In this document: positions 17,920 through 29,294 of the stretch, piece after piece
How the letters are laid out: the number at the start of each line of letters is the position of its first letter
How positions within the stretch are numbered: position 1 is the first letter of the stretch
Assembly (NCBI GenBank): GCA_020629005.1
Contig: JAHDEE010000022.1
Location: 1 to 39,140, forward strand
Source of the DNA: Chitinophagales bacterium
Lineage (GTDB): Bacteria > Bacteroidota > Bacteroidia > Chitinophagales > UBA2359
Direction: 5' to 3'
Length of the DNA stretch: 39,140 nucleotides
Notes under the pieces: model-generated
The model's input: only the letters and a program-made list of their open reading frames with translations
Told to the model about the DNA's origin: nothing
The model's database searches: none
Made by a program: the position numbers and the translations under genes

Positions 17920-18101
17920 AAGCGAACTGAAATCCCCCACGTAGAAACGGGCTACCGGCTGTCCGTTATAATGGAGGTGGCTTGCAGGCGCTTCATGTAT
18001 CCAGCTGCCAGGTCTCCTCCTTAGGTCGGAGCCCTGGCAGCTGGCACATTCAGTCGCCTTCAAGCCACCTCCATTTCCACTTCCATCCGGGCTATTTTGA
18101 A
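17920..18101 (-). ncRNA. Flavo-1-like structured RNA repeat (copy 3)
   Basis: The best-paired copy. On the minus strand it starts CAAAATAGCCCGGATGGAAG. Arms 17971-17990 (ATGGAGGTGGCTTGCAGGCG) and 18055-18074 pair over 20 positions with one mismatch. An inner stem, CCAGCTGCCAGG (18001-18012) with CCTGGCAGCTGG (18033-18044), is perfect over 12 bp. After the stem comes ATAACGGACAGCCGG, the equivalent of the AACAGCGGA block. It lies between the divergent gap gene and the signalling cassette. Confidence 0.62.
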
Positions 18102-19925: not shown

Positions 19926-21458
19926 ATGTTGGAATACAGCCTGGAATTTGACAGTACAGGGAAAGTAACTTACTCTGAAGCACCTATGATTCCTGTCAAT
20001 CAACAAATAGATCAGCATATTCCCCTCTTTGCAGATCTGGATATACTGAATAGCCTTGCTGATAATCAGATAAGCCCCTACCTTTGCCAGATCAAAGACC
20101 AGACTTACTACTTCGATCTGAGCTGGTCACCGAGACAATCAGACAAGCAGACGAATGGATACACGGTTAGAATGATCGACAAAACAGCTGACTTCGAGCG
20201 TTTGCAAGAAGAACGGACATTAAAAAACCGTTTCAAGATTGAAAACGAGGTCTTGCGAAAAGACATCGAAGAAGAACAAGGGATCAAGGCAAAACTACAG
20301 CAAAAGAATGAAGAGCTGCAAGCCATCTTCAACAATACACACGAAGGTATAATCTACCTCAATGCCCGCGATAAAAAGCTGCTTTCTATCAATGAACGTG
20401 GAATGGAAATTCTTGGGGCTGAATCCCAAGCAGAACTGAGTAGTCGCACACTGATTGAATTTTGTCTTGAAGAACGTTTCAAGACCATGAGCTCCAGGCA
20501 GCTTATGAAGCAGGTAGATCGACGCATTTCTCAGGAAGGAGAATTGAATACGATCGTGCAGATCCAAAAACTCGATGGCAGCGTTGCCTGGATTACCGTT
20601 AGGGCTATATTGGATCAAAGTAATCGCTCGCGTCCCACCAACATCATGTTCATTGGTGATATTACCCAAGAGTACGAAGCAAAAAAACACCTCGAAATGA
20701 AAAACGAGGAGTTGCAGAGATACATTGAGTCCAACATTCAACTAGAGCAATTTGCGCATGTGGCTTCTCACGACCTTAGGGCACCAATCATTACGATCAA
20801 GAGCTTTTCGAAACTATTGAGTGATGAAGCTGCGTCAAAATTAAATGAACTGGAAAAGGAGTCCTTGTTCTTCATTCAGTCGAATGCCGAACAAATGTAC
20901 GAACTGGTCAATGACCTACTAGAATACTCACAGGTCAATTCTCAGGCCATCAAAGTGGTAGAGTTGGATTTGCAAGAGACAGTGCAAAATGTAATCTCTT
21001 TGCTTCAAGCCCAGGCAGTTGAACGCGAGGTTACTGTCCAAATCACCGGTACCCTGCCAACAGTACTGGCCGACAAGGTGAAAATGAAGCGGGTGTTTCA
21101 AAACGTCATCGGCAACTCCATAAAATTTTCAGATCCAGCCAAAGATTCCGTCATTCGAATCTCCTGCAAGGAAACAAAGGAACACTATCGATTTGAAGTA
21201 TTTGACAATGGAATTGGCATCAAGCAAACAAAAGTTGACATCTTTTTACCCTACATCCAGTTAAACAACAAGGCCCACTATAAAGGAACTGGATTGGGCC
21301 TGGCCATATGTAAAAGGATAATATCGCAACATCAAGGCCAGATCTCTTACGATTCCATTGAAGGACAAGAAACGAAGTTTGCCTTCACGATTTCAAAGAA
21401 TCTACAACCACTAAAAGAAAAAGCACACACAAATGCCGAGGCTCAAGCTGCCAAATAG
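19926..21458 (+). CDS. Cytosolic PAS-domain sensor histidine kinase
   Basis: 510 residues with no transmembrane segment. An N-terminal PAS-like region (1-90) is followed by a coiled coil (~92-132), a PAS domain (~133-250; FNNTHEGIIYLNARDKKLL), a HisKA helix pair with phospho-acceptor His282 in VASHDLRAPI, and a HATPase_c domain (N box NVIGNSIKFSD near 397, G1 DNGIGI at 427, G2 GTGLGLAICKR at 454). Since it cannot see the outside directly, its input may come through PAS ligands or the GTPase coded 5 bp upstream. It is followed by a lone receiver gene after 29 bp, which is the probable phosphate acceptor. Confidence 0.93.
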   Translation: MLEYSLEFDSTGKVTYSEAPMIPVNQQIDQHIPLFADLDILNSLADNQISPYLCQIKDQTYYFDLSWSPRQSDKQTNGYTVRMIDKTADFERLQEERTLKNRFKIENEVLRKDIEEEQGIKAKLQQKNEELQAIFNNTHEGIIYLNARDKKLLSINERGMEILGAESQAELSSRTLIEFCLEERFKTMSSRQLMKQVDRRISQEGELNTIVQIQKLDGSVAWITVRAILDQSNRSRPTNIMFIGDITQEYEAKKHLEMKNEELQRYIESNIQLEQFAHVASHDLRAPIITIKSFSKLLSDEAASKLNELEKESLFFIQSNAEQMYELVNDLLEYSQVNSQAIKVVELDLQETVQNVISLLQAQAVEREVTVQITGTLPTVLADKVKMKRVFQNVIGNSIKFSDPAKDSVIRISCKETKEHYRFEVFDNGIGIKQTKVDIFLPYIQLNNKAHYKGTGLGLAICKRIISQHQGQISYDSIEGQETKFAFTISKNLQPLKEKAHTNAEAQAAK

Positions 21459-21487
21459 TCCTTACTCTGCCAACTCCTCAAACTCCA

Positions 21488-21886
21488 ATGCTAATGCCAA
21501 TGTTATTCTTTATCGACGATGATGCCGCTGCCCACACTTTTCACAAGATCATGGCAAAGAAAGCAGAATACAAAGACCAGGACCTGCACTGCTTCATGAG
21601 TGTAGACGAAGCCATGAATTGCATCAATGCTATTATAGAAAGTGGGGATTTCACCTCCTGGCCCAGCCACATCTTCATCGATCTGAATATGCCATTGAAG
21701 ACTGGGTACGACTTTGTAGCTGAATTTGAGGCAGTCTTACCGGCAGCCGACCAAACGCCAGAATTGTATTTCGTATCAAGTTCCAAGAATCCCGTTGACA
21801 TAGAAAAAGTGGCAAAACTTGACTTGATCAAAGGATTCGAAACTAAATTCCTTCAAAAAGAATTCTTCGCAGCGATCAAGAACTAA
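21488..21886 (+). CDS. Single-domain response regulator
   Basis: 132 residues, a receiver domain only and no DNA-binding output. Acidic pocket DDD at residues 10-12, phospho-acceptor Asp65 in FIDLNMPLKTGYDF, Ser97/98 switch in YFVSSSK, and Lys120 in ETKFL, where the usual Pro after Lys is missing. Starts at 21494 or 21500 are also possible because several ATGs are clustered. It is the last gene of the cassette. Without an effector domain it must act by protein contact or pass phosphate on. Confidence 0.9.
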   Translation: MLMPMLFFIDDDAAAHTFHKIMAKKAEYKDQDLHCFMSVDEAMNCINAIIESGDFTSWPSHIFIDLNMPLKTGYDFVAEFEAVLPAADQTPELYFVSSSKNPVDIEKVAKLDLIKGFETKFLQKEFFAAIKN

Positions 21887-22167: not shown

Positions 22168-24357
22168 TTGCGGACTTTGAGCACACTAAAATTCTATAAG
22201 CAAGCTGACTCGGCAGACTGTGGGCCTACTTGCCTGCGGATGATTGCTCAGTTTTATGGCAAAATCCTAAGCACCCGTTACCTTCGCGAAATCTCATTCC
22301 TTGATCGACAAGGGGTGAGCCTATTAGGCATTTCGCATGCAGCTGAACAAATTGGTTTCAGAACACTAGCAGTAAAAGTACTCTATCAGAATAAAGATCA
22401 CGCCTCGCTACTTTCCGCACCGCTACCTTGCATTGCACACTGGAATCAAAATCACTTTGTTGTCATCTACAAGGTCACAAAAGAATTCGTGTGGGTCGCG
22501 GATCCGGCCAGCGGGAAACACAAGCTAAAGCGTAAAGATTTCGAAAAAAGCTGGGCAAGTGATGGCGGAAAGGGCATTTTGCTGTTGTTAGAGCAAACCC
22601 CGGAATTTACCCGGTCAAAAGACGATGTGGCCTCGTACAGCTTTCGCTTTCTGCTACAGTATCTTTCACCCTACAAAAGCCTGATATTTCAGCTCTCTCT
22701 GGGACTTTTGCTTACTGTGCTGTTTCAGCTGCTTTTCCCCTTTCTCACACAATCAGTAGTCGACATTGGAATTCAAAACAACAATTTGAATTTCATCTAC
22801 TTGATTCTTGCTGCACAGCTCATACTATTTGCCAGCCAAACCAGCGTGCAATTCATACAGAATTGGATCTTGCTGCATATCAGCACCAGGGTGAACATTG
22901 CCCTCATTTCGGACTTCCTGCAGAAGCTAATGAAACTACCATTAGGCTTCTTTGACGCCAAAAACATAGGCGATCTACTGCAACGAATTGGTGACCATAA
23001 GCGTATCGAATCCTTTCTCACCGGCACTACTTTGCAAGTCCTTTTCTCCAGTTTTAGTCTGCTGGTTTTCAGTCTGGTACTGTTCCTGTACAACCCTTTG
23101 GTCTTCACAATCTTTGCAGTTGGCGCCATTCTATATATTCTATGGGTAATTCTGTTTCTCAAAAAGCGAAAGGAAGTAGATTACCTGGCCTTTCAGCAAC
23201 TATCTGAGAATCAAGACAGCTTGATCGAGATCATTCAGGGCATGCCGGAGATAAAGTTGCAAAACAGCGAATACAAACGGCGCTGGAATTGGGCCAACAT
23301 TCAGGCGCGCCTTTTCAAAACGCAAATACGATCACTCGCCATTACTCAGTACCAGGACGCAGGCGCCTCGTTCATCAATCAATTCAAAGATATCTGTATC
23401 TCTTTTGTCGTTGCCACTGCCGTAATCAAAGGTGAAATGACCCTTGGGATGATGATCGCAGTCCAGTACATTGTAGGTCAAGTCAATGGGCCGCTAAACC
23501 AATTGATTGGCTTCATCAGAAGAGCGCAAGATGCCAAGATCAGTCTGGAGCGCCTCAACGAAATACACAATCAGGAATCGGAGCATCAAAGTGTTGAGAC
23601 CACCAACGAATTCATCCCAAAAGAAGACATAGTACTGCAAGATCTGCACTTCAAGTACAGTCCGATTTCCCCAACTGTACTGAAGAAAATAAACCTGAGC
23701 ATTCCTAGAGGAAAAGTCACAGCCATTGTTGGTTCCAGCGGCAGCGGTAAAACCACGCTGATAAAGCTGTTATTGGGCTTCTATCCTCCAACTAGTGGCA
23801 AGATCAATATCGGAGACATCAGCCTGGACCAGATTCAGCAAAAGGTTTGGCGAGCCAACTGTGGAGCAGTACTACAGGATGGATATATTTTCTCAGATAC
23901 TATCGCCAACAATATCGCGGAGTCAGATGACATTGTGGACAGAAGCAAACTACTTAAAGCGGTCAAAACGGCAAACATCCAGGAGCATATTGAACAGCTT
24001 CCTCAACGATATAACACAATCATTGGAGCCAAGGGAAAGGGATTAAGTCAAGGGCAAAAGCAAAGAATGCTCATCGCAAGAGCTGTCTATAAAGACCCGG
24101 AAATCCTGTTTTTCGATGAGGCAACCAATGCTCTTGATGCAAACAACGAGAAGATCATCATGGAAAATCTTGAGCAGTTCTTCCAGGGACGAACTGTGAT
24201 TGTGGTTGCTCACCGACTAAGCACAGTAAAAAGTGCTGACCAGATCATTGTACTGGATGATGGAAACATTGCCGAGCTAGGCACGCACCAGGAACTGGTT
24301 GCACTGAAAGGGAAGTATTACACCCTGGTAAAGAATCAACTCGAATTGGGACAGTAA
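22168..24357 (+). CDS. Peptidase C39-containing ABC exporter (RiPP leader cleavage and export)
   Basis: 729 residues. The C39 cysteine peptidase (1-~140) has Cys18 in SADCGPTCLRM, His96 in NHFVVIYK and Asp112 in ADPASG. The transmembrane domain (~155-455) is followed by an ABC ATPase: Walker A GSSGSGKTT at 522-530, signature LSQGQKQR near 625, Walker B ILFFDEAT near 645, and H-loop VVAHRLSTV. Such proteins cut double-glycine leaders in the cytosol and pump out the core. The start is TTG at 22168, with AGAAGG seven bases upstream. Its stop abuts the HlyD-like gene. The nearby precursors end their leaders in GG or GA, which fits its specificity. Confidence 0.95.
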   Translation: MRTLSTLKFYKQADSADCGPTCLRMIAQFYGKILSTRYLREISFLDRQGVSLLGISHAAEQIGFRTLAVKVLYQNKDHASLLSAPLPCIAHWNQNHFVVIYKVTKEFVWVADPASGKHKLKRKDFEKSWASDGGKGILLLLEQTPEFTRSKDDVASYSFRFLLQYLSPYKSLIFQLSLGLLLTVLFQLLFPFLTQSVVDIGIQNNNLNFIYLILAAQLILFASQTSVQFIQNWILLHISTRVNIALISDFLQKLMKLPLGFFDAKNIGDLLQRIGDHKRIESFLTGTTLQVLFSSFSLLVFSLVLFLYNPLVFTIFAVGAILYILWVILFLKKRKEVDYLAFQQLSENQDSLIEIIQGMPEIKLQNSEYKRRWNWANIQARLFKTQIRSLAITQYQDAGASFINQFKDICISFVVATAVIKGEMTLGMMIAVQYIVGQVNGPLNQLIGFIRRAQDAKISLERLNEIHNQESEHQSVETTNEFIPKEDIVLQDLHFKYSPISPTVLKKINLSIPRGKVTAIVGSSGSGKTTLIKLLLGFYPPTSGKINIGDISLDQIQQKVWRANCGAVLQDGYIFSDTIANNIAESDDIVDRSKLLKAVKTANIQEHIEQLPQRYNTIIGAKGKGLSQGQKQRMLIARAVYKDPEILFFDEATNALDANNEKIIMENLEQFFQGRTVIVVAHRLSTVKSADQIIVLDDGNIAELGTHQELVALKGKYYTLVKNQLELGQ

Positions 24358-25674
24358 ATGCCAGAAAGAATCTACATAGAAGATCCGGAAGAAATCGAGC
24401 TGAACCAGCACGATGAGATACAGGAACTATTGGGCCATCCCCCAGGCTGGATGCTCAAATGGGGCATCACAGTAGTCCTGCTCTTTGTTGGTCTGTTTCT
24501 CTTGCTTTCCTGGATTATCAAATACCCGGATACGAACACAGCTGCTGTTACGATCACTACTGTGCTGCCACCTGTATCCGTCGTAGCTGCAAGCTCTGGT
24601 GAGCTTTCCGAGCTCCTTGTGAAAGATCAACAAATGCTGAAGGAAGGAGAACTAATTGGCATCGTCAACAGCGGCGCAAGCTACGATGATATAAGGACTA
24701 TGCTGAACGAGTTCGACAAGCTGGGACCCAAAAACTATGCTGCTGCCAAACTACCGAGATCACTAAGCCTTGGAGTGCTCAATACCGAATACGTTGCATT
24801 GATACAAGCAATAGAGAGTTTCCAACACTTCCAAAGCAAAACAACAAGCCCACAAAAAATCAATTCCCTTGAAGAGGAACTGCTCAGCATAGAAAGAATG
24901 AATGAATACCTAAAGTCTCAAGAAGATTTATTCAGAAACGAGCTGGCATTGACTGAAAAGAACTACCAGAGAAACCTAGAACTCAAGCAAGATCAAATTG
25001 TGAGTGAAGTGGAGCTAGAGCGAATCCACTCGCAGCTCTTGCAGCAACAACAACAGATATCCAACTTCAAAACCAGCCGGATCAACAATGAGGTCAAGAA
25101 GGAGCAAATTCAAACACAGATTTCCTCGGTAGAAAACGATTATCAGCTGGAAGAGTCAACGCAAATGCTCAAAATACAACAACAGATTGATCGCATTCGT
25201 GGAGACGTAAAACAATGGGAAGAAAAATACTTATTCAAATCCCCAGCTGATGGCCAAATTTCTTTCTCTCAAGTATGGTCCAGGAATCAATATATCAAAT
25301 CAGGAGAAGAGATTTTCAAAATTGTACCCACACAAGAAAGCGGGGAAATCATAGCTCGTTGCGAGCTACCTGTAGCTGGAGCCGGAAAAGTGAAGAAGGG
25401 CTCTACTGCCAGTATTCGCCTGGATGCCTTCCCTTACCAGGAATACGGCAGCATTCCTACACAGGTAGATAAAATTTCTCTTATTCCAAACATGATCGGT
25501 GAAGGTGAGTTTGCCTACCAGTTAGAGTTAAACCTCCCACAAAATCTTATAAGTAGCTATGGACGAGAGCTTCCTTTCCGACAACAAATGAAAGGAACCG
25601 CCATTATCATCACCGAAGACAAGAGAATCTTTCATCGGGTATTCGAAAAACTCTACAGTGTAATTAACAACTAA
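24358..25674 (+). CDS. HlyD-family membrane fusion protein of the RiPP exporter
   Basis: 438 residues. It has a cytosolic N-terminus of ~33 residues, one membrane helix at ~34-55, a first biotinyl-lipoyl half (VVAASSGELSELLVKD), a long periplasmic alpha-hairpin coiled coil (~165-290, rich in Gln and Glu), a second lipoyl half (FKSPADGQISFSQVW) and beta-barrel strands to the end. It bridges the inner-membrane C39 ABC exporter to an outer-membrane TolC-like channel, which is not coded in the window. It begins on the base after the exporter's stop codon, so the two are co-expressed. Confidence 0.93.
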   Translation: MPERIYIEDPEEIELNQHDEIQELLGHPPGWMLKWGITVVLLFVGLFLLLSWIIKYPDTNTAAVTITTVLPPVSVVAASSGELSELLVKDQQMLKEGELIGIVNSGASYDDIRTMLNEFDKLGPKNYAAAKLPRSLSLGVLNTEYVALIQAIESFQHFQSKTTSPQKINSLEEELLSIERMNEYLKSQEDLFRNELALTEKNYQRNLELKQDQIVSEVELERIHSQLLQQQQQISNFKTSRINNEVKKEQIQTQISSVENDYQLEESTQMLKIQQQIDRIRGDVKQWEEKYLFKSPADGQISFSQVWSRNQYIKSGEEIFKIVPTQESGEIIARCELPVAGAGKVKKGSTASIRLDAFPYQEYGSIPTQVDKISLIPNMIGEGEFAYQLELNLPQNLISSYGRELPFRQQMKGTAIIITEDKRIFHRVFEKLYSVINN

Positions 25675-25686
25675 AAGCAGAACTGA

Positions 25687-26703
25687 ATGAACACTTTCAT
25701 ATTCTCTCAGGACACCGACCTTACGACCAATAAAGTGATGGACTGGCTGCACTTTCATGGGGCAACCGTTACAAGAGTTAACGGTGAAGCTTTCGGTTCG
25801 GAAAACTGCCAGGTCAGCCTAAAACTAACTGATCACTCTACTGAACATTCATTGATAGTCGACGGAGTAGATGTTTTGCAGGCTAAAGTGAATCGTCTAT
25901 GGATTCGCAGGGACTCCCCATCATCTGCCTGCACTGACTTCAAATACGAAGACAAGGGAGCAGAAAGCCAGGTCCAAAGGCACTTGCAAAAAGAATCGCG
26001 AGAGGCCAAGAGAAGTCTCTTTAGAATGCTAAATCTGCCGGTTCTGGGTGACTTCTTCCAGATGAATGTAGAAAAAACCGATATACTGATGAAGGCCAGA
26101 TCAACTGGACTACAAATTCCGGCTACGCTGATCACCTCGCGTAAATCTGACTTGCTAACATTTATCAAAGAGCACGGATCAGTGATCACAAAGCCATTGG
26201 TAGATCCCATACATGTGCAGCCAAAGAAGCAGTCTGTTTTCCTAAGCTATACCGAGGCATTGGACAAAAAAAGACTTGCCGCAATACCCGAACAGTTCTT
26301 TGTCTCCCTATTTCAGGAACAGATCGAGAAAGCCTATGAGCTTCGCATTTTCTTTCTTGATAATCGATGCTACCCCATGGCCATATTTTCACAGCTCGAC
26401 CAGCAGACAACGGTTGATTTTCGGAGATACAACACAAAAAAAAGCAACAGAAATGTCCCTTATAAACTGCCGGAAAAGATCGAAGCGTCTCTAGTAAAAC
26501 TGATGAATGATATAGGCCTCAACACAGGCTCCATAGATATCATTAGAGCTGTAGACGGACGCTATGTATTCCTGGAAGTCAATCCAGTGGGACAGTTTGG
26601 AATGGTCTCAGGCCCTTGCAATTATTATCTGGAAGAGCAGGTGGCTTTGAGTCTGATCAAAGATACAGCCGCACCTCAAATCAACGGCCAGCAAATAGGC
26701 TAA
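25687..26703 (+). CDS. gwsG: Grasp-with-spasm ATP-grasp peptide maturase
   Basis: 338 residues. The opening (FIFSQDTDLTTNKVMDWL) and the close of the ATP-grasp fold (SIDIIRAVDGRYVFLEVNPVGQFGM) are typical of GwsG, related to the graspetide (microviridin-type) ligases. It should use ATP to activate Asp/Glu side chains of the precursor and join them to Thr/Ser or Lys, giving ester or amide rings. Motifs visible are VITKPLVDP (ATP-binding Lys region), YELRIFFLDN, VDFRRYN and the Mg-binding E-x-N in FLEVNPVGQ. It lies 12 bp after the HlyD-like gene and before gwsS. Confidence 0.9.
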   Translation: MNTFIFSQDTDLTTNKVMDWLHFHGATVTRVNGEAFGSENCQVSLKLTDHSTEHSLIVDGVDVLQAKVNRLWIRRDSPSSACTDFKYEDKGAESQVQRHLQKESREAKRSLFRMLNLPVLGDFFQMNVEKTDILMKARSTGLQIPATLITSRKSDLLTFIKEHGSVITKPLVDPIHVQPKKQSVFLSYTEALDKKRLAAIPEQFFVSLFQEQIEKAYELRIFFLDNRCYPMAIFSQLDQQTTVDFRRYNTKKSNRNVPYKLPEKIEASLVKLMNDIGLNTGSIDIIRAVDGRYVFLEVNPVGQFGMVSGPCNYYLEEQVALSLIKDTAAPQINGQQIG

Positions 26704-26723
26704 GAAACTCTAAGACAAACATT

Positions 26724-26924
26724 ATGGCTAAAAAATTCCTGGAACACTTGCAAGAGCACAAAGAACAGTTGCCAGTGCATCTCTATTACCTCAGCACACC
26801 AGAATTCTTCAAACGCAAGGCAACTGACTCTAAAAGCCAATTTCATAACACCAAGCACTTTGCGGTTAGGATTAGCACCAAACCTGCCTCGTGTACAACT
26901 ATCCAAGACAATGGATCAAAATAA
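26724..26924 (+). CDS. 66-aa protein of unknown function between gwsG and gwsS
   Basis: Fills the gap between the two maturase genes: it starts 20 bp after gwsG and overlaps the gwsS start (26911) by 14 bp, an arrangement that suggests real, coupled translation. The product is basic (about a dozen Lys/Arg and five His), with a helix-like N-terminus (MAKKFLEHLQEHKEQL) and no signal, Gly-Gly site or membrane span. It lacks the MKDSL leader of the precursors, so it is unlikely to be a substrate. It could be a leader-binding helper, but I recognise no family. Confidence 0.6.
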   Translation: MAKKFLEHLQEHKEQLPVHLYYLSTPEFFKRKATDSKSQFHNTKHFAVRISTKPASCTTIQDNGSK

Positions 26925-27942
26925 GTACTTCAGCCTCTTTGCCTGCTGCTTCTGCGTAAAGGGTGCCAAAGAAGGTATCATCATTGATAGTCAGCGTGGA
27001 GCATTTCTTGCAGTTCCAAACGAGTTGATCCCGATTCTCAATAAGTCAAATCAGCATAAAATCCGGGATCTAATCGAACAGCAATACCCGCATCTGGAAC
27101 GTGGTATCCTGGCATACTTTGGGAAGCTAGTCGAGATGGAATATGGATTCCTGACTTCCGAACCCGAGCGATTCCCTGCGATTGATCTACAATGGAAAAC
27201 TCCTTTTCCACTTGCTGCCGGTATAGTCGAATACGATTTCTCTTCTGCCTCCTTCGATCTTATTCATTGTTTGAAGCTTCTCGAAGAACAGTGCTGTGAA
27301 CTGGTTCAGTTTCGATTCTTCAATCAGGTAGATGTAGCGCAGCTGGATAAAACACTAGTGCAATTCTCCCAGTCAAGGTTCAGACGTTTCGAAATTCTGA
27401 TGAATTGGCAATCCTACAAACAGCATAAGGAAGCCCTCAATGAACTGTCAGAAACACATGGACGCATCTCCAACTATGGCATTTTCAATTCCCCGGTTCA
27501 AGAGTCCGACAACAAAATCACGCATTACACTTTCCCGATGGAACCCGGAAAGTATGTAGAAAGGGTGGGCAAGAGTGGCTTTCTCACTTCCCTGAACCAC
27601 TATACCGAATCACTGAAATTCAACACTGGCTTGAATGGAAAAATTGCTATTGACATTACCGGTAGACTGATGAATCATCCAGCACATTCCAAAAGCTTCG
27701 GCATGATTCAGGATACGGAAACATTAAGCCGTCTGCTCGAGCAAGATGATTTTCTTCAACAGCAGCGGATATTAAAGACGGAGGTACAGCCATGCAAGTC
27801 CTGCCAGTTTAGAAACATGTGCCACACAGTCAGTGAACTCATCCCAGGGGAAGAAGGATACAAGATGGCTCATCCCTGTTCCTTCGATCCAGCAGCAAAT
27901 GAATGGAGACGGCAAACCGAATCCAGTTTAAAGCCCGCTTGA
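26911..27942 (+). CDS. gwsS: Grasp-with-spasm SPASM-domain peptide maturase partner
   Basis: 343 residues from the ATG at 26911; an upstream in-frame ATG at 26860 would add 17 residues outside the usual family start. It opens YFSLFACCFCVKGAKEG, as GwsS proteins do. The C-terminal SPASM segment has CKSCQFRNMCHTV near residue 296 and a later Cys in HPCSFDP, the ligands of an auxiliary 4Fe-4S cluster. The middle is radical-SAM-like in flow, but I see no CxxxCxxC for the catalytic cluster; the nearest cysteines are the CCFC group. It probably acts with GwsG, perhaps in substrate binding rather than radical chemistry. Confidence 0.88.
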   Translation: MDQNKYFSLFACCFCVKGAKEGIIIDSQRGAFLAVPNELIPILNKSNQHKIRDLIEQQYPHLERGILAYFGKLVEMEYGFLTSEPERFPAIDLQWKTPFPLAAGIVEYDFSSASFDLIHCLKLLEEQCCELVQFRFFNQVDVAQLDKTLVQFSQSRFRRFEILMNWQSYKQHKEALNELSETHGRISNYGIFNSPVQESDNKITHYTFPMEPGKYVERVGKSGFLTSLNHYTESLKFNTGLNGKIAIDITGRLMNHPAHSKSFGMIQDTETLSRLLEQDDFLQQQRILKTEVQPCKSCQFRNMCHTVSELIPGEEGYKMAHPCSFDPAANEWRRQTESSLKPA

Positions 27943-28033
27943 CCTGGAGCCGAAACTATCAAAACAAAAATCGTGGCCGCGAGAAGACATCAACCCTGTA
28001 CGAGAGGGAATTACTTAACTACAATGTTTTACA

Positions 28034-28210
28034 ATGAAAGATTCATTATTTGAAGCATTTCAGGAATGTGAAATTACCAAGACTGAAGTACAACAAGTAG
28101 AAGGTGGTGCTACCACCATTTGCTACATCGGTATGGATTCTGGTAGAACTTCCTGGAACGCTGATGGCGGTGCATGGCACGCCGACTGTGTCGATGACTT
28201 GATCGACTAG
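28034..28210 (+). CDS. RiPP (graspetide-like) precursor peptide 1, Cys type
   Basis: 58 residues. The leader MKDSLFEAFQECEITKTEVQ ends at VEGG (residues 22-25), the expected C39 cut. The 33-residue core begins ATTICYIG, is rich in Thr/Ser and Asp, and ends DCVDDLID. Thr and Ser near the core start could be joined to the acidic residues near its end by GwsG. Two core cysteines (30 and 52) are matched in precursor 2. It lies 91 bp after gwsS, which fits co-transcription or its own promoter. Confidence 0.88.
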   Translation: MKDSLFEAFQECEITKTEVQQVEGGATTICYIGMDSGRTSWNADGGAWHADCVDDLID

Positions 28211-28251
28211 CAGTTAGGAAAACCCATTATTTAACACATTAATTTTCTATC

Positions 28252-28431
28252 ATGAAAGATTCACTTTTAGAAAAGTTTGAAGAGAGCCGTCTGCAACAGG
28301 CGGCTGTTGAGCAAACTTTCGGCGGTAAGGAAGTTACTTGGTGCATCGACGTCGGAGACGATGGTGTTACCAATGGCCAAGATGATCAAGACAATACCTG
28401 GTCTGATTGCATAGACGACGCTATTCACTGA
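28252..28431 (+). CDS. RiPP (graspetide-like) precursor peptide 2, Cys type
   Basis: 59 residues. The leader MKDSLLEKFEESRLQQAAVE ends at TFGG (22-25). The core starts KEVTWCID, is strongly acidic, and ends SDCIDDAIH. Its two cysteines (31 and 53) match those of precursor 1, the second in the shared context DC(V/I)DD. Thr and Ser supply hydroxyls and the Asp cluster carboxyls for ring formation. An 11-bp perfect hairpin (28419-28443) covers its stop codon. Confidence 0.87.
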   Translation: MKDSLLEKFEESRLQQAAVEQTFGGKEVTWCIDVGDDGVTNGQDDQDNTWSDCIDDAIH

Positions 28432-28443
28432 TAGTGAATAGCG
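28419..28443 (+). repeat. Perfect hairpin over the stop codon of precursor 2
   Basis: CGCTATTCACT (28419-28429) and AGTGAATAGCG (28433-28443) are exact complements around a GAT loop. The stop codon lies at the loop. There is no T run, so it is not a standard terminator; it might protect or delimit the transcript of precursors 1 and 2. Confidence 0.7.
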
Positions 28444-28451
28444 CGTGAGTG

Positions 28452-28511
28452 GGGATTGGTCTTTATTGGCCCTGACAAACCAGGATCAAAAGGACCAATC
28501 CCTTTTCTCTT
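28452..28511 (+). terminator. Terminator-like hairpin between precursors 2 and 3
   Basis: GGGATTGGTC (28452-28461) pairs perfectly with GACCAATCCC (28493-28502), followed directly by TTTTCTCTT. The 31-base loop contains a further CCTG/CAGG pair. The long loop makes it a weaker terminator than usual, so partial read-through to precursors 3 and 4 is likely. Confidence 0.6.
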
Positions 28512-28538
28512 GATTCCCTAATCATCAAACCGTAAACA

Positions 28539-28718
28539 ATGAATGACTCACTTTTTGACAAGTTCAATCAGGAAGAGCTAGAGGAGGAGAAGCAATGTGA
28601 AGTAGTCGGTGCTAAGGCCACTACCTTCACCTACGAGCAAGGTGCACAAGGTGAAACCATGCTGGTAAACGACAATGGCGACTTCCAGGAAGATCATCTT
28701 CCAAACCATATTGAGTAG
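28539..28718 (+). CDS. RiPP (graspetide-like) precursor peptide 3, D-N-G type
   Basis: 59 residues. The leader MNDSLFDKFNQEELEEEKQC ends at VVGA (22-25), so the cut would follow Gly-Ala. The core starts KATTFTYEQGAQGET, then MLVNDNGD, and ends in an acidic stretch with His. Four Thr lie ahead of the Asp/Glu cluster, a donor-then-acceptor layout expected of an ester-ringed peptide. There is no core cysteine; its single Cys is in the leader. It shares T-x-x-T, G-x-G and D-N-G with precursor 4. Confidence 0.85.
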   Translation: MNDSLFDKFNQEELEEEKQCEVVGAKATTFTYEQGAQGETMLVNDNGDFQEDHLPNHIE

Positions 28719-28785
28719 TCAATGATTTTAATGCCAAACTTTGCCTTTGTGAAGTTGGCTATTTTATCACATAAATTCTACCACA

Positions 28786-28965
28786 ATGAAAGATTCACTT
28801 TTAGACAAATTCGAGTCAGAAGAGCTTCAGGAAACGGAAGTACTGGCTACGGAAGGAGCAAAGCAACGGACCAATTTCACAACTGGTTCTGGTGCGGGTA
28901 CCTGGATCCATTATGACAATGGTCTAAGCAGCCCAGATCCTCGACAAGATGACGACTTGCTCTAA
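28786..28965 (+). CDS. RiPP (graspetide-like) precursor peptide 4, D-N-G type
   Basis: 59 residues. The leader MKDSLLDKFESEELQETEVL ends at TEGA (22-25). The core starts KQRTNFTTGSGAGTW, then IHYDNGL, and ends RQDDDLL. Thr-rich first half, Asp-rich end, no cysteine. The leader DNA is almost identical to that of precursor 2 over the first ~20 bases, which points to duplication. The last gene of the RiPP locus. Confidence 0.87.
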   Translation: MKDSLLDKFESEELQETEVLATEGAKQRTNFTTGSGAGTWIHYDNGLSSPDPRQDDDLL

Positions 28966-29019
28966 TCACTCCTGACCACTGCAAATTCGAGGTTGTTCTT
29001 GCTGCTGTACAGACTACCG

Positions 29020-29194
29020 TGGCAAAATAGCCCCGATGGCAGTGGAAATGCAGCTGCCAGCAAGGGGACTGAGCGCTGCGCTGGCGCTGGCTCCCAAAGA
29101 GACAGCGAAAGTGCTGCAGCGAAGCCCCTTGGTGGTAGTTGCATTGCAACGAACAGCGGGACTGCAGGTACAAGAACGAGCGGCGTTTTGCTCC
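29020..29194 (+). ncRNA. Flavo-1-like structured RNA repeat (copy 4)
   Basis: Starts TGGCAAAATAGCCCCGATGG. Arms 29047-29067 (AATGCAGCTGCCAGCAAGGGG) and 29125-29145 pair over 21 positions with a few mismatches or G-U pairs. After the stem comes GCAACGAACAGCGGGACTGC, the second conserved block, and then a GAGC...GCTC hairpin (29178-29193) followed by AAATTTTT, which may end the transcript. It lies just after the RiPP precursors. Confidence 0.62.
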
Positions 29195-29208
29195 AAATTT
29201 TTGATGCA

Positions 29209-29276
29209 GTTTCTAGTAGTTGGTTTCTAGTAGTTGGTTTTTAGTAGTTGGTTTCTAGTAGTATGTTTTTAGTACC
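29209..29276. repeat. Tandem 14-bp repeat, about 4.9 units
   Basis: Units of GTTTCTAGTAGTTG start at 29209, 29223, 29237, 29251 and 29265. The third and fifth have T for C at position 5, the fourth ends AT, and the fifth is cut short. No gene covers it. Such arrays vary in copy number by slippage; no function is evident. Confidence 0.85.
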
Positions 29277-29294
29277 AAAAGAGCACAGGGGCTA

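Follow-up and report, generated by a model that had tools for sequence, protein, structure and literature searches.

The described systems closest to the locus considered here are the grasp-with-SPASM loci (TIGR04192/TIGR04193) that make up branch 5 of Makarova et al. 2022 (PMC8939145). These loci encode an ATP-grasp maturase, a SPASM partner whose gene is immediately preceded by that of an LPL-family small protein, multiple and diverse double-glycine precursors and, in part of the branch, a C39-ABC/HlyD exporter. The locus at positions 22,168 to 28,965 of contig JAHDEE010000022.1 (Chitinophagales bacterium, assembly GCA_020629005.1; 39,140 nucleotides, the whole of which was analyzed and is hereafter called the window) belongs to this published kind and has all these components. 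It differs from branch 5 in that the precursor genes follow gwsS instead of preceding gwsG, the precursors form a family outside Pfam and NCBIfam, the SPASM protein GwsS is of a form with a single iron-sulfur (Fe-S) site in this domain, and no lipoprotein-like 'cluster 23' gene was noticed. The locus probably falls within group 14 of PMC13097080, a candidate assignment to a SPASM-associated group that is described there as always having a SPASM protein.

Three further types of systems share individual components with the locus. The maturase GwsG is homologous to the synthetases MdnC, AMdnB and CdnC; however, unlike the microviridin and chryseoviridin pathways with their MdnB/MdnC and CdnB/CdnC pairs, the window encodes one synthetase, not two, with GwsS and LPL added, and its precursors lack the PFFxRFL leader motif of microviridin. 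With the radical S-adenosylmethionine (SAM)-SPASM maturases SuiB, CteB and TigE, which contain a recognition element for ribosomally synthesized and post-translationally modified peptides (RiPP recognition element, RRE), and with PqqE, GwsS has the RRE and SPASM folds in common, but it lacks the radical SAM cluster motif and has lost one of the two auxiliary Fe-S sites. A graspetide synthetase that requires a partner with an RRE-like domain, as proposed below for the window, is on record in the rosaritide pathway (MirB and MirC; PMC13097080), although MirC is a PPIase/chaperone-type protein rather than a SPASM protein. No characterized product of any member of this Bacteroidota branch was found in the literature searched. 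What is new here is the precursor family, the prediction of a conserved T-x4-D ring, and the evidence pointing to GwsS as a scaffold, not a radical enzyme.

The locus probably represents a complete grasp-with-SPASM graspetide gene set that would produce up to four side-chain-stapled peptides, trim them and export them, and in which GwsS serves as a non-catalytic, leader-holding scaffold. It is compact, with nine genes and four natural cores for a single maturase:

22168..24357, + strand: C39 peptidase/ABC exporter, 729 aa; start codon TTG, uncertain
24358..25674, + strand: HlyD-family periplasmic adaptor, 438 aa
25687..26703, + strand: GwsG, ATP-grasp peptide maturase (TIGR04192), 338 aa
26724..26924, + strand: LPL-family small accessory protein, 66 aa, assigned by its own profile and position; overlaps the start of gwsS
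26911..27942, + strand: GwsS, 343 aa, with an RRE, a radical SAM-like barrel and a one-site SPASM domain
28034..28210, + strand: precursor 1, 58 aa; leader 1-25 ending in GG; core ATTICYIGMDSGRTSWNADGGAWHADCVDDLID; T39-x4-D44; two Cys
28252..28431, + strand: precursor 2, 59 aa; leader ending in GG; core KEVTWCIDVGDDGVTNGQDDQDNTWSDCIDDAIH; T40-x4-D45; two Cys
28451..28503, + strand: hairpin followed by TTTTCTCTT, terminator-like, between precursors 2 and 3
28539..28718, + strand: precursor 3, 59 aa; leader ending in GA; core KATTFTYEQGAQGETMLVNDNGDFQEDHLPNHIE; T40-x4-D45; no core Cys
28786..28965, + strand: precursor 4, 59 aa; leader ending in GA; core KQRTNFTTGSGAGTWIHYDNGLSSPDPRQDDDLL; T39-x4-D44; no Cys

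The exporter with its C39 domain, the HlyD adaptor, GwsG, GwsS and the four open reading frames (ORFs) of 58-59 aa are all found where an earlier note on this DNA had placed them. That note described the locus as complete, and every gene it named is indeed present, but the LPL gene (26724-26924) and the hairpin at 28451-28503 were overlooked. Its assignment of the locus to the graspetide type, with four precursors, is supported by the family models, the solved relatives of GwsG, the paralogous loci of the genome, and the conserved leader and donor/acceptor pair.

GwsG matches TIGR04192 with 283.9 bits, above the curated cut-off of 230, and its profile matches the solved structures of MdnC (5ig9, 2.5e-34), AMdnB (7m4s) and CdnC (7mgv). 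Because of this kinship, GwsG should join Asp/Glu to Thr/Ser/Lys side chains, and the precursor cores encoded beside this ATP-grasp ligase contain both Thr/Ser/Lys donors and Asp/Glu acceptors, as is characteristic of graspetide precursors. The exporter comprises the Pfam domains Peptidase_C39 (7e-33), ABC_membrane (1e-31) and ABC_tran (1e-31), and the sequence of the C39 site is intact, with Cys in ADCGPTC, His in NHFVVIY and Asp in ADPASG. The adaptor matches TIGR01843 (8e-30) and Pfam HlyD_3 (3e-10).

The leader motif M[KN]DSL[LF]xxF occurs four times in the six-frame translation of the window and in none of 300 simulated windows drawn from its dinucleotide frequencies. Differences among the leader codons are concentrated at third positions (315, 226 and 420 at positions 1, 2 and 3, respectively; ratio of nonsynonymous to synonymous differences, pN/pS, 0.51), as expected of real genes. 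The common leader and the GG or GA boundary at the same position, both reported in the earlier note, are seen in all four ORFs, with the boundary exactly at residues 24-25; with this boundary and a C39 peptidase retaining Cys, His and Asp, these are leaders of the double-glycine (C39) type. A profile of seven precursors detects the four in the window and three more in the same genome, located at the sister locus C438, at locus C170 and on contig C74; the last of these (E 1e-14) had no part in building the profile. The C438 and C170 precursors lie beside gwsG, and so does a counterpart in Lewinella cohaerens. The C74 precursor (L116:262-465, - strand) is located near a contig end, has the same leader and T-x4-D, and is not accompanied by a maturase on that contig; it may come from a fifth locus or be an orphan.

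Conservation of the small ORFs, which the earlier note had asked for, is seen in part, in that these three additional genes and the one in Lewinella cohaerens exist, but no member was detected in 19 other genomes of the taxonomic family, which implies that the precursor family is narrow. Narrow precursor families have already been described for this branch (PMC8939145). No further convincing members were found in 395 genomes drawn from the phylum; a weak match in one genome (G114, E 4e-5) was set aside as it is not beside the gwsS of that genome and differs in sequence. The precursors had also been called unrecognised, and this stands insofar as the Pfam and NCBIfam models neither recognize the family nor give a convincing match to any of the four ORFs, but loci with multiple diverse precursors are already on record for this branch (PMC8939145).

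Across the eight aligned precursors, M1, D3, L5, F9 and G24 are invariant, along with T39 and D44 in the core. The T-x4-D spacing is present in all eight cores compared to 0.2% of shuffled sets, a figure that rises to 1.1% if the choice of one donor, one acceptor and one spacing is left free; T-x15-D likewise occurs in eight of eight. Our best guess from these alignments is that T-x4-D corresponds to one conserved ring, which is the sharp ring prediction offered by the locus. The cores are acidic, with a net charge of -2 to -9. Double-glycine leaders are not specific to graspetides, and precursor 1 shows weak ComC/BlpC-like matches (E 0.06-0.1), so the four ORFs might instead encode precursors that are left unmodified by GwsG and simply leave through the exporter, such as ordinary bacteriocins or pheromones of the double-glycine type. 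We consider this very unlikely: the genes are closely linked to gwsG/gwsS at three loci of the genome and in Lewinella cohaerens, the Thr/Asp pair is conserved, and the cores are acidic.

GwsS, for which the start codon is ATG at 26911 rather than the upstream TTG at 26860, matches TIGR04193 over its full length (4e-49, 167.8 bits; NCBI naming cut-off 175). On the tree, it is placed within a starred, supported clade of 14 one-site forms (98), in which all members from outside this genome except one score above 175; the full-length match and the tree placement identify it as a member of the TIGR04193 family. Its closest relative outside the genome is the Lewinella cohaerens protein, and the precursor in that locus has the same leader.

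In the AlphaFold2 model of GwsS (81 sequences; mean predicted local distance difference test score 94.9), the N-terminal part has the PqqD-like winged-helix fold of an RRE: residues 5-81 resemble the RRE of a leader-bound lasso peptide B1 protein (6jx3; Z 9.1, 2.2 A over 76 residues), and the N-terminus also matches TbiB1 (5v1v; Z 8.3, 3.1 A over 79). Residues 96-327 resemble PqqE (Z 10.8, root-mean-square deviation [rmsd] 4.6 over 181) and SuiB (Z 10.5, rmsd 4.7 over 208), and the whole protein resembles TigE (Z 12.2, rmsd 7.0 over 278) and CteB (Z 11.0, rmsd 6.5 over 266). In the SPASM domain, C295, C298, C304 and C323 are invariant among 81 aligned homologs. The second four-Cys site is complete in 59 of these; in the other 22, including GwsS of the window, which has V216, G240, H256 and V307 at these positions, the cysteines are all gone, except for a single Cys in one row. 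GwsS therefore retains one four-Cys site and is not a two-site SPASM protein. In terms of the anSME structure, the invariant and variable sets correspond to AuxII and AuxI, respectively. On the tree, the 22 one-site forms make up a few groups explained by three changes, which leaves room for a single origin. Judging by the alignment, the site appears to have been lost as a unit in some lineages, including that of the window. In the RRE part, Cys 13 is conserved in 76 of the 81 homologs.

The CX3CX2C motif that defines radical SAM enzymes is absent from all 97 GwsS homologs. From the lack of this motif and the loss of the second-site cysteines, it follows that the family has no radical SAM site and that this branch also lacks one auxiliary Fe-S site. 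PMC8939145 treats the GwsS-type protein as a radical SAM enzyme and suggests that thioether bonds are formed. A working radical GwsS, forming carbon or thioether links at the cysteines of precursors 1 and 2 in addition to the rings made by GwsG, would be in line with the SPASM domain, with a barrel that still resembles radical SAM enzymes and with the Cys-containing cores: precursors 1 and 2 have two common cysteines, the second one in a DC[VI]DD motif that the C170 and C74 precursors contain as well. We find this extremely improbable, given that none of the 97 homologs has the motif, that C129 (70 of 81 homologs) is the only Cys widely conserved in the first half of the barrel, and that neither precursors 3 and 4 nor the precursor at C438 have core cysteines. 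A radical GwsS was rejected on the absent motif and the model, and the two together indicate that GwsS acts as a recognition scaffold for GwsG. If so, these loci are unlikely to carry out the thioether chemistry that has been proposed for them, and expression without GwsS or LPL should fail.

As is typical of grasp-with-SPASM loci, an LPL-type small protein is encoded directly upstream of the SPASM gene. An LPL profile detects the window member with E 1.9e-13 and exactly four members in the genome (6.89 Mb, 96.7% complete, four GwsG genes), one per gwsG/gwsS locus, and a small ORF at this position is found beside 91 of 94 GwsS genes; these ORFs usually carry an LP motif and, at the C-terminus, a FYKPIS-like motif. 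Two residues of the family, P17 and K53, hardly vary. Modeled alone, LPL has no compact fold (predicted template modeling score [pTM] 0.36), which fits a partner that folds upon binding. The family was described in PMC8939145, where a chaperone role was proposed and a resemblance to the Phh motif, which these precursors lack, was pointed out. LPL itself was rejected as a precursor as it has no GG boundary and is present once per locus, next to gwsS. No natural fusions of LPL with GwsG or GwsS were found in the fetched loci.

These features bear on a different division of labor, in which LPL switches on GwsG in trans, its LPxxx[FY] helix taking the place of the microviridin leader motif PFFxRFL, and the role of GwsS is limited to holding the precursor. 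We regard this as possible but less likely than not. It is suggested by the genomic distribution of LPL, which is present at each of the four loci and confined to them, the two nearly invariant residues, the likeness to a motif missing from the precursors (PMC8939145), and the known activation of RiPP tailoring enzymes by leaders supplied in trans (PMC13003496). It is countered by the lack of a compact fold in the LPL model and by the hydrophobic, helix-like stretch SLLxKFE that the precursor leaders themselves carry. For the family as a whole, we favor, with moderate confidence, the view that GwsS is a retired radical SAM enzyme turned leader-binding scaffold that presents the precursor to GwsG with the assistance of LPL, so that these loci would make partner-dependent graspetides without radical chemistry.

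Under the mechanism that we propose, the RRE domain of GwsS would hold the 25-residue leaders, and GwsS, acting as a non-catalytic scaffold, would present the core to GwsG. At the expense of ATP, GwsG would link activated Asp/Glu side chains to those of Thr (or Ser/Lys), with the loss of 18 Da per ring, and LPL would be a small partner of the GwsS-GwsG complex that binds one of the two proteins. The C39 domain of the exporter would cut after GG/GA at residue 25, and the exporter and HlyD would release up to four different stapled, acidic peptides of 33-34 residues; the Cys pair of precursors 1 and 2 would probably close as a disulfide after export.

Several observations weigh against this interpretation. 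The predicted ring residues come from eight sequences, four of which are tandem paralogs, and outside the genome only Lewinella cohaerens has a precursor counterpart. GwsS scores 7 bits below the NCBI cut-off for TIGR04193, and the invariance of its remaining Fe-S cysteines could mean a redox rather than a structural role. Finally, the hairpin at 28451-28503 (-33.6 kcal/mol, z -4.65 compared to shuffled sequences), which is followed by T-rich sequence, may end the main transcript before precursors 3 and 4; given its location between precursors 2 and 3, precursors 3 and 4 may be transcribed as a unit of their own or more weakly. Promoter scans yielded no more sites than in shuffled sequences. 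Precursors 3 and 4 could even be decaying copies, with precursors 1 and 2 alone in use, as their location behind this terminator-like element, their GA boundary and their lack of core Cys might suggest. This is unlikely, however, because both reading frames are open and still encode the leader, T-x4-D and a boundary at the usual position, and the leader codons between the two show pS 0.74 vs pN 0.32. The ORFs downstream of 28965 (28993-29244) overlie a structured repeat, and no fifth precursor is present there.

The gene order at the sister locus C438 (C39-ABC, HlyD, gwsG, LPL, gwsS, one precursor) is the same as in the window, and at locus C170, the precursor gene sits between gwsG and the LPL gene. 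Among the 76 fetched loci longer than 9 kb, C39-ABC is encoded nearby in 28, and both C39-ABC and HlyD in 23, so complete loci like that of the window are a minority in this sample. One of the loci (L097, genome G004, contig C733) contains three tandem gwsG/gwsS pairs on 16.8 kb, with differing precursor families and one C39 exporter at the end.

In the window, a PAS-type histidine kinase followed by a response-regulator-like ORF (19926-21886) is located 280 bp upstream of the exporter; these genes were rejected as members of the locus since there is no equivalent at C438. Just past precursor 4 lies a structured repeat of about 140 nt (29022-29162, + strand), with a second copy at 17953-18100 (- strand). 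It forms 41 pairs, 32 of them with compensatory changes among 19 copies. At least 150 copies are present in this genome and many in five relatives, including at least 79 in one of the same genus. The repeat matches Rfam Flavo-1 (RF01705) with 40.7 bits, slightly below the gathering score of 42, and on this score is probably an expanded Flavo-1 RNA family. Immediately after this Flavo-1-like element, at 29209-29278, there are about five tandem copies of the 14-bp unit GTTTCTAGTAGTTG.

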